From Spirochaetae bacterium HGW-Spirochaetae-3 (GTDB lineage: Bacteria > Spirochaetota > Spirochaetia > Treponematales > UBA12059), in NCBI GenBank assembly GCA_002839315.1, contig PGXV01000003.1, positions 62,001 through 126,000 on the forward strand: 64,000 nt of DNA. The letters are read 5' to 3'. The position numbers and the translations under genes were made by a program. The notes under the pieces are model-generated. The model searched no databases and was not told where the DNA came from. It was given only the letters and a program-made list of their open reading frames with translations. This document shows, piece by piece, positions 24,138 through 61,771 of this stretch (position 1 is the stretch's first letter; each line of letters starts with the position of its first letter).

Positions 24138-24189
<52 letters not shown>

Positions 24190-24211
<22 letters not shown>

Positions 24212-24276
24212 AAAAGACCCGTTCCGCCCTTCGGGCGGAACGGGTCTTTTTATTAGGGCCCAGCTGGACTTGAACC
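24190..24276. repeat. Giant palindrome: tRNA-Ile2 3' end plus terminator, inverted
   Basis: The 21 bases 24256-24276 are the exact reverse complement of the tRNA 3' end at 24190-24210. With the A5/T5 tracts and the terminator stem between them, the arms 24190-24229 and 24233-24276 pair over 40 bp, interrupted only by four extra bases (ATTA, 24252-24255) in the right arm. A read-through transcript could fold the T-arm and acceptor 3' strand of the tRNA into this helix instead of the cloverleaf. Confidence 0.9.
24216..24252 (+). terminator. Strong terminator directly after tRNA-Ile2
   Basis: GACCCGTTCCGCCC pairs perfectly with GGGCGGAACGGGTC (14 bp, 3-nt loop) followed by TTTTT. It begins 4 nt after the tRNA. 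The stem continues outwards into the tRNA sequence (see the palindrome entry). Confidence 0.93.
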
Positions 24277-24482
24277 TAAGCATGCGCCGAGCGATAGCGA
24301 GGAAAAGCGCCCATGGATGGGCGCGTAAGCATGCGAAGGCGGGCTGGAGAACCGAGACAGGATGTCGAGGTTCGGAAGCCAAGTCCAGGCCCCGCGCGGA
24401 GCGAGGGGCTCACGGAAAGGCCCGGCTCCGTGGTTGGGGCGGAACGGGTCTTTTTAATTAGGGCCCAGCGGGACTTGAACCT
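24233..24482. repeat. Direct repeat pair enclosing the tRNA-downstream element
   Basis: The right arm of the palindrome (24233-24277) recurs at 24437-24482 in the same orientation with one added base and one substitution (T to G in the inverted tRNA part). The 159 bp between the copies contain the conserved structured element (24280-24334) and a second hairpin near 24349-24374. The copies resemble duplicated target or attachment ends of a small inserted element (inference). Confidence 0.8.
24280..24334. repeat. Structured element, copy 1 (tRNA-Ile2 side)
   Basis: Outer stem GCATGC (24280-24285) with GCATGC (24329-24334). Then comes a 21-nt joining segment (24286-24306) beginning GCCGAGCGA and containing GCGAGGAA. 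The inner stem GCGCCCAT-GG-ATGGGCGC is at 24307-24324, followed by a 4-nt joiner GTAA. Copy 2 lies at 61613-61669 behind tRNA-Gly with identical segment lengths except one extra outer base pair. The differences between the copies in both stems are compensatory. Confidence 0.75.
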
Positions 24483-24515
24483 GAGTCGCGTCACGAGCTG
24501 GCGATCGACTACTAC

Positions 24516-60735: not shown

Positions 60736-61266
60736 ATGAGGAAGAGACGACATCTTGTACGAGGAGCCTGCTATCATGTTACGATGAGGGCGAACCGGAA
60801 GGAGATGATTCTGGATGCTCCAGGTATTAAGGCTCTATATATCCAGGTTGTCCGAGAAGCACGACTTCGGTATCGGTTCAGAATAGATAATTTCACGATA
60901 ATGGGAAATCATGTACATCTGCTTATCAAGCCGGAAGAGAATGAGTGCTTATCTAGGATTATGCAATGGATAAATAGCGTCTTCGCTATACGGTATAACA
61001 AATTATTCGGATTATGCGGGCATGTCTGGGGAGAGCGGTTTTATTCTCTAATTCTAGCTCGACTACAGGATTATATTCGTGTTTTCAAGTACATAGACGA
61101 GAATCCGGTAGCTGCGCATTTAGTACTATTCGCAGATAAATGGGTATTTGGAGGCTTATTCCATTCCAGAAAAGGGATTTGGACTGTTCTTTCGCCTCCG
61201 ACACTGCTTCTTTGCTTGCTATTCCCAAGACATCTGCCGAATTCGCTCATGACGAAGAAACGGTAG
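60736..61266 (+). mobile_element. REP-associated (Y1/HUH) transposase, RAYT type
   Basis: A 176-residue single-strand DNA transposase of the Y1_Tnp group. The N-terminus RKRRHLVRGACYHVTMRANR is typical of the REP-associated branch; FTIMGNHVHLLIKPEEN contains the HUH metal motif (His-Val-His), and RVFKYIDENPVAAHLV is the conserved C-terminal segment with a tyrosine. Unlike IS200, RAYTs are usually single domesticated copies that mobilise short palindromic repeats. The gene is much more AT-rich than its surroundings, so it is probably imported. It lies between the rnf terminator palindrome and the tRNA-Gly locus with its palindromic element. Confidence 0.88.
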
Positions 61267-61477: not shown

Positions 61478-61548
61478 GCGATCGTCGTATAACGGTATTA
61501 CCCGAGCTTCCCAAGCTCGTGACGCGGGTTCGACTCCCGTCGATCGCT
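61478..61548 (+). tRNA. tRNA-Gly (anticodon CCC)
   Basis: A 71-nt cloverleaf: acceptor GCGATCG/CGATCGC, anticodon arm CGAGC-TTCCCAA-GCTCG with anticodon CCC, T-arm GCGGG-TTCGACT-CCCGT. Discriminator base T; CCA is not encoded. The D-arm (GTATAACGGTATTAC) is short, as in other glycine tRNAs. Confidence 0.93.
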
Positions 61549-61610
61549 AGACGATAAAACCCCGGTAACCCGGGGTTTTGTCGTCTATAAGCGCCGACGG
61601 GAGTCGAGCC
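61527..61610. repeat. Palindrome: tRNA-Gly 3' end plus terminator, inverted
   Basis: 61595-61610 is the reverse complement of the tRNA T-arm region 61527-61542 (15 of 16 bases), and the terminator stem lies between. As at tRNA-Ile2, the right arm contains a small AT insertion (61587-61590, ATAA) at the junction of terminator and inverted tRNA sequence. Confidence 0.8.
61549..61586 (+). terminator. Terminator hairpin directly after tRNA-Gly
   Basis: AAAACCCCGG pairs with CCGGGGTTTT, and the stem extends outwards through AGACGA/TCGTCT (17 pairs including one G:T). It starts at the first base after the tRNA. Confidence 0.85.
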
Positions 61611-61731
61611 GAGGAGCGCGCCGAGCGAATGCGAGGAAGAGCGGCCATGGATGGCCGCGAAAGCGCTCCGAGGCGGCGCGAAGCGGCCAGGAGGGCGGCG
61701 AGCATAGCGGATTCCCGTCTATAAGCGCCGA
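61582..61731. repeat. Direct repeat pair enclosing the second structured element
   Basis: CGTCTATAAGCGCCGA occurs at 61582-61597 and again at 61716-61731. The following inverted tRNA part is recognisable but degenerate in the second copy. The 118 bp between contain the structured element 61613-61669. The layout is the same as at tRNA-Ile2. Confidence 0.75.
61613..61669. repeat. Structured element, copy 2 (tRNA-Gly side)
   Basis: Outer stem GGAGCGC (61613-61619) with GCGCTCC (61663-61669); 21-nt joining segment (61620-61640) identical to copy 1 at 18 positions; inner stem GCGGCCAT-GG-ATGGCCGC (61641-61658); 4-nt joiner GAAA. The inner stem differs from copy 1 by a C-to-G change on one arm and the matching G-to-C on the other. 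The outer stems differ in sequence but both pair. Confidence 0.75.
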
Positions 61732-61771
61732 TTGAAATCGAGGGGGAGAGAGCGCTGTGCGAATGCAGGGT

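Follow-up and report, generated by a model that had tools for sequence, protein, structure and literature searches.

Tyrosine recombinases classically act at the 3' ends of genes for tRNA and tmRNA, and these genes are the best-known docking points for mobile DNA in bacteria. The guests known from them carry an integrase, and the islands and phages that integrate there, at either type of gene, are bounded by attL and attR, a direct repeat of the gene's 3' end that starts in the T-loop. In other systems the attachment site is a folded strand. The attC site of integrons is an imperfect one-strand hairpin of very variable sequence that works through its structure; its outer stem provides the att duplex, and units are joined into arrays at one exact point. 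The site of the CTX phage, which is served by XerCD, consists of inverted att sequences about 100 nt apart that fold to a forked hairpin mimicking the chromosomal target duplex. At the E. coli tyrT locus, RtT repeats (RF00391) lie behind a tRNA gene and each contain the tRNA 3' end; to our knowledge they are restricted to this one locus and have no inverted tail copy. Tandem direct repeats of the rtT type are known near tRNA genes. Palindromic REP and BIME repeats, linked to RAYT transposases, occur many times per genome, and the RNAs CsrB, RsmY, RsmZ and TwoAYGGAY carry hairpins with ANGGAN loops.

Here we describe an element, termed E, in Spirochaetae bacterium HGW-Spirochaetae-3 and its relatives. 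The analysed window is a stretch of 64,000 nt (contig PGXV01000003.1, positions 62,001 to 126,000). It contains only two tRNA genes, each of which hosts one copy of E on its own (+) strand, and behind each of them the order is terminator, T' (the local tRNA tail, inverted), E and T2 (a direct copy of the tail). The host of copy 1 is a gene with anticodon CAT at 24138-24211, called as Met by ARAGORN and matched by Rfam RF00005, whose body appears to be like that of tRNA-Ile2. Its own 3' tail, T1 (GGTTCAAGTCCAGCTGGGCCCA, 24190-24211, repeat I22), is followed at 24212-24250 by the hairpin of an intrinsic terminator (AAAAGACCCGTTCCGCCC-TTCG-GGGCGGAACGGGTCTTTTT), which is missing from the output of the consensus scan. 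The 24-nt T' at 24253-24276, evident from repeat I22 and the tail comparison, is 96% complementary to 24190-24213, and its last bases double as element sequence, the 5' strand of helix P0 being 24266-24272. Copy 1 itself spans 24266-24386 and comprises helices P0, P1, P5, P2, P4 and P3. By alignment and fold, P1 (24280-24334) pairs GCATGC at 24280-24285 with GCATGC at 24329-24334 around hairpins P5 (24287-24302) and P2 (24307-24324, loop AUGGAU); between its strands lie a 21-nt joiner, GCCGAGCGATAGCGAGGAAAA, then GCGCCCAT-GG-ATGGGCGC (24307-24324) and GTAA. The alignment places P4 (24343-24379; 24343-24345 with 24377-24379) around the P3 hairpin at 24349-24373, which has tandem G.A pairs and the loop AGGAU. 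T2 (24380-24388; CAAGTCCAG, truncated) copies the tail from C56 exactly, as seen in the sequence and the tail comparison, and holds the 3' strand of P0 (24380-24386). A second inverted tail copy at 24461-24485 (blast match 24457-24485, G000:C14:86457-86485) leads into a decayed second element, and the two together are the remnant of a tandem array.

Copy 2 follows tRNA-Gly(CCC) at 61478-61548, identified by Rfam and ARAGORN. Directly upstream of this gene is an IS200-like gene (Y1_Tnp, RAYT-type, 176 aa; 60736-61266, +), the only one detected in the genome. The inverted tail of tRNA-Gly, T' (AGCGCCGACGGGAGTCGAGCC), occupies 61590-61611, and the element 61600-61715 (G000:C14:123600-123715). Its P1, with P5 and P2, spans 61613-61669 and pairs GGAGCGC (61613-61619) with GCGCTCC (61663-61669); between these strands are the joiner GCCGAGCGAATGCGAGGAAGA, 18/21 identical to that of copy 1, then GCGGCCAT-GG-ATGGCCGC and GAAA. 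T2 is found at 61710-61719 (GATTCCCGTC, where the tRNA reads GACTCCCGTC), and a degenerate repeat of the preceding tail and element start (repeat D19, 78% to 61582-61632) occupies 61716-61766. The covariance model matches the copies over these spans with E = 4.7e-31 and E = 5.3e-18, both being among the 29 sequences from which it was built. A preliminary description had reported the two-stem parts at 24280-24334 and 61613-61669, with equal part lengths, closely similar joiners and stems that differ between the copies and are paired in each, and the sequence agrees in every one of these respects. These parts are present but form only the middle of an element of about 120 nt, and the 21-nt joining segment exists yet is not unpaired: it folds as P5, with the pattern CC-GA-GC-nnn-GC-GA-GG. 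That description also lacked the main features of E, namely its link to tRNA and the tail copies in both orientations.

In the 29-copy alignment, P0 is formed by T' with T2, P1 encloses P5 and P2, and P4 encloses P3. Changes on both sides affect 29 of the 39 pairs, and double changes occur in all six helices, as counted on the same 29 sequences from which the structure was derived. Double-change cells number 196; shuffling leaves 56 of them, and sliding the partner strand 22-46. Selection on structure, proposed earlier from two copies, is thus upheld by stems that covary. Fold z is -4.9 for DNA and -6.3 for RNA, and model scores, covariation and folds together put the element well beyond what chance would give. 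P1, P5 and P3 each contain a tandem G.A pair, with Watson-Crick substitutes in some copies. Predicted folds contain an extra short helix of CC after T' with GG before P4, which, with the alignment read by eye, becomes GG/CC or GC/GC in several copies.

A DNA search found matches in 34 of 59 related genomes, nearly all directly behind tRNA genes of many isotypes, and the covariance model, R1, found them in 41 of the 59. Across a sample of the phylum R1 matched 56 of 296 genomes, every one in the class of the window. In the window genome, R1 gives 12 matches at E <= 1, 11 of them at E <= 0.001, for a set of 43 tRNA genes; the complete genome of relative G034 has 50 tRNA genes and 23 matches, and relative G031 has 48 and 7. 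Further copies do exist, therefore: the covariance model collected 126 distinct ones in 98 loci of Spirochaetota, and their stems are mostly unbroken without compensation. A tRNA gene on the same strand lies 7-681 nt, mostly 40-70 nt, upstream of 104 of these copies. For the other 22, the upstream neighbour is a tmRNA gene, a tRNA tail missed by ARAGORN or a further copy, or else the locus is truncated at a contig end or assembly gap. All copies with enough flank are on the same strand as, and downstream of, a tRNA gene (31 anticodons), a tmRNA gene or an array mate; tRNA 3' flanks make up a tiny share of the 3.9 Mb of the window genome. Phage and plasmid records gave no E match, Rfam matched only the two window tRNAs at the gathering score and, weak sub-threshold matches aside, gave no other family at E <= 5, and the open-access literature contained no description of such elements that we could find. 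Judged against that literature, the anatomy of E appears to be new, and the folded attachment site is a known principle.

This distribution bears on the earlier suggestion that the hairpins are recognized by a transposase and are kin to REP-like families, by which E would be a hairpin of the REP/BIME kind that owes its spread to a RAYT transposase of the IS200 type. E and REP/BIME are alike in being palindromic repeats with many copies per genome, and a folded DNA strand with tandem mismatches would suit such an enzyme, as would the position of the genome's sole Y1_Tnp gene about 0.35 kb upstream of copy 2. However, among the listed Y1_Tnp genes and E copies only this pair lies within 1 kb, and Y1_Tnp is present in 26 of the 41 carrier genomes and absent from 15, so that no transposase is consistent. 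The tetranucleotide GTAG, which marks the foot of REP hairpins, appears in the first 24 nt of just 5 among about 119 copies, and E is confined to the 3' flanks of tRNA and tmRNA genes rather than dispersed, with no intragenomic family structure. The kinship is therefore not sustained, and we regard this origin as quite improbable. The neighbouring transposase was also rejected as a general cause of E, the link being weak.

The tail copies follow the local gene. In the 93 copies close to their tRNA, to which the comparison was limited, the local tail ranked first, alone or tied, among 71 distinct tails as the match to T' in 80 and to T2 in 72. As in tRNA-integrating elements, the gene's 3' end is directly repeated with one exact start, T2 beginning precisely at C56 (junction U55|C56, in the T-loop) in 65 of 73 copies whose core is exact. 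The right end of T2 is variable and lies anywhere from within the acceptor strand to over 200 nt past the gene. In G034, both tail copies are missing at 15 of 20 sampled tRNA genes that lack E. Four of the other five have an insert, a different bracketed one at L258 and diverged E-like ones missed by R1 at L259, L260 and L263, and at the fifth, L256, T' and T2 surround an unclassified insert. Tail copies thus accompany inserts and are not general features of tRNA flanks. E shares with integrated islands and phages the direct repeat and the use of both gene types, but it is shorter than 200 bp, free of genes and endowed with an extra inverted tail copy and a conserved folded core. Like RtT repeats it is located behind a tRNA gene and contains the 3' end; it differs from them in the inverted tail copy and the many loci, and RF00391 was absent among cmscan matches to E at E <= 5.

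On this evidence we consider the chances about even that E is a small mobile unit without coding sequence whose integration sites are the 3' ends of genes for tRNA and tmRNA. Folding of the strand co-linear with the tRNA gives a forked hairpin, at the base of which T' and T2 make up a double-stranded version of the tail. Mobility by way of a folded DNA intermediate is what we infer. The unit may move as, or be recognized as, a folded single strand, the base of which would present a duplex identical to the target tRNA tail. A candidate recombinase acting on T-loop sites could swap this base with the gene at U55|C56; the unit would provide a replacement tail and a terminator, completing the tRNA gene, and the displaced original 3' end would become T2. 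Such a working mode would liken E to the integron attC or the folded CTX site, aimed at tRNA genes, with the enzyme and the capture of the tail as its putative parts. Somewhat more tentatively, E may belong to a class of minimal mobile elements, spread over several phyla, that consist of a non-coding folded attachment site and nothing else, with a duplex tail copy, insertion at U55|C56, restoration of the gene and arrays.

E resembles attC as an imperfect one-strand hairpin of very variable sequence that may work through its structure, in its arrays, whose units meet at one exact point, and in an outer stem that would correspond to the att duplex. Unlike attC, it has no RYYYAAC/GTTRRRY boxes (R'' in 0/119 and R' in 1/119 copies), sits at tRNA or tmRNA genes and not beside intI, and has a non-coding unit that the integrase does not track. 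The forked hairpin from inverted att sequences is common to E and CTX, but the target of E is the tRNA T-loop instead of dif, there are no phage genes, and the targets are many. Integron integrase TIGR02249 exceeded the cut-off in 15 of 41 carriers and 8 of 18 non-carriers, with no association with E. Neither integron integrase nor IS200/RAYT genes track E, and no recombinase was found for it, which counts against mobility. So does the need for a mobile unit, unlike an ordinary cassette, to carry or acquire a matching tail for each tRNA.

A structure-selected RNA would be expected to tolerate G.U pairs and a folded DNA strand would not. In the supported stems of E, 1.6% of all G.U and Watson-Crick pairs are G.U; the stems of the neighbouring tRNAs have 7.4%, and the terminator hairpins that separate tRNA and E have 6.7%. 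This depletion leans to a folded DNA strand. The structured RNA put forward in the preliminary description is accordingly right about structure and less well placed as to RNA. Low G.U could come in part from palindrome correction or from strong helix selection. Correction would remove G.A as well as G.U, and the 485 G.A cells retained in the stems of E count against it. On the other hand, a pure DNA role leaves the loops of the spirochaete copies unexplained: GGA is retained in that of P2 (110/119) and, in many copies, in that of P3 (82/119).

These loops favour the main rival to a mobile folded strand, a CsrA-binding RNA, which we judge unlikely though well short of negligible. E would then be a structured RNA that titrates CsrA, like CsrB or RsmY, and that is transcribed either past the tRNA terminator or from a promoter of its own; P2 and P3 would display ANGGAN/CAGGANG loops, and the tail copies would serve as a closing stem, perhaps with a tRNA-like 3' end. 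The loops often match CAGGAUG, CAGGAAG or CAGGACG, which equal the CsrB repeat, there are weak sub-threshold Rfam matches to RsmY/rsmX, and E is always on the tRNA strand. CsrA was found in 36 of 41 carrier genomes and 10 of 18 non-carriers, and in one family four carriers have CsrA and eight E-free genomes lack it, but this correlation is confounded by phylogeny, and five carriers, one of them 94% complete, have no detected CsrA. Moreover, 28 of 119 P3 loops are CGA, the loops of the Omnitrophota copies are not GGA, most copies sit behind a terminator, G.U is strongly depleted and turnover is rapid. An RNA that binds CsrA also leaves the match of T' and T2 to each local tRNA and the start at C56 unexplained. 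A precedent for such an RNA comes from E. coli, where CsrA-binding sRNAs lie between the dual terminators of rRNA operons, according to PMC8144298. TwoAYGGAY is named in a table of PMC2864571, where the text available to us draws no link to tRNA. E differs from this RNA and from CsrB, RsmY and RsmZ in lacking an above-threshold Rfam match, in a loop that is not conserved beyond spirochaetes and in its bracket of tRNA tails.

Outside Spirochaetota, a pattern scan of named genomes followed by R1 revealed relatives of E in Omnitrophota (at tRNA-Ser and tRNA-Gly), WOR-1 (tRNA-Asn) and a lake-sediment bacterium (tRNA-Gln). A search of these genomes gave eight matches, each behind a tRNA or tmRNA gene and with the same layout, and one weak R1 match on Omnitrophota contig L094 lies behind a protein gene. 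The start of T2 in the Omnitrophota copies, with the printed sequences read by eye, is the same as in spirochaetes. The inner architecture and the core GCCGAGCGnAGCGAGGA are common to several phyla and cannot have formed locally each time. They largely refute the notion that E is an immobile and functionless product formed in situ, through duplication and inversion of tails by template switching at tRNA hairpins and perfection by palindrome correction. Quasi-palindrome correction does yield double changes and no G.U, and rtT-type tandem direct repeats offer a precedent near tRNA genes, but the persistent tandem G.A mismatches would have been removed, and we deem such an origin highly improbable.

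Copies of E also form tandem arrays of the form E - T2 - spacer or terminator - T', whose members may be nearly identical or quite different. Successive units in the arrays follow each other at about 110-220 bp, which leaves no room for an integrase gene inside E. On a tree of 92 copies, which has few columns and many open forks, the isotype labels require 51 changes compared with 66 when shuffled (0/200; the same with shuffling within families). Copies at tRNA-Ser from seven genera, except L235, form one well-supported clade that includes one Pro copy. Similarity is 0.546 between copies at different isotypes in the same genome, 0.547 between unrelated copies and 0.599 between copies at the same isotype in different genomes. 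Recent spread within one genome is unsupported, as intragenomic copies are no more alike than unrelated ones, and so is strict vertical inheritance, as similarity between copies that share a tRNA in a single genus runs from 0.47 to 0.92. Isotype grouping and low orthology together suggest turnover and tail-specific exchange, not strict descent or free intragenomic transposition. Arrays at the CAT-anticodon tRNA in G000, G006, G010 and G016 look common to several genera, which would fit vertical inheritance and a host function and speaks against a mobile unit.

Several other repeats and genes were encountered during the searches. A second insert type occurs in arrays behind tRNA genes (L017, L010, L020, L038, L060, L232, L233, L258), with an unpaired stretch like ACAACAACATTCC(A/T)CTCGG beside GC-rich hairpins with GCGAAGC-like tips; at L258 the tRNA-Gly tail copies T' and T2 stand on either side of the insert, and at L038 the insert splits a T'. 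Rumen Rickettsiales (L077, L082, L086-L089, L107, L108, L113-L115, L143 and others) have repeats of about 95 nt, GTTGCGC...GCCGAGCGnAGCGAGGAGGAGCG...GCGCAAC, which are numerous in each genome, mostly not at tRNA genes, and have the P5 core in common with E. Related intergenic hairpins with the core GTGTCCGAGCGnAGCGAGGACGAGCG, or close to it, are found away from tRNA genes in Omnitrophota L078, L083, L084 and L098. In L002 (1600-1800), the unit GGGGTGAGA-hairpin-TCGAGGGGGTATCCCCCTTT occurs twice behind the tRNA-Asn element. The Omnitrophota tmRNA of G327 (L245) has an unusually long tag peptide by ARAGORN, probably from a mis-called tag frame. Strong integron integrase genes, over the TIGR02249 cut-off, are located at G000:C4:1340-2281 and in 22 relatives, several of them near contig ends.

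E places a gene-free, strongly covarying hairpin at the best-known docking points, with up to 23 copies per genome, both orientations of the tail and a range of at least three phyla. Should movement as a folded strand prove true, E would bring the principle of attC and CTX to tRNA genes and provide a ready system for the copying of a target by its site. If it is an RNA, it would constitute a large new class linked to tRNA transcription, and perhaps to CsrA. Under either reading, E now comes with a covariance model, with U55|C56 as a rule for its site and with many loci open to testing.
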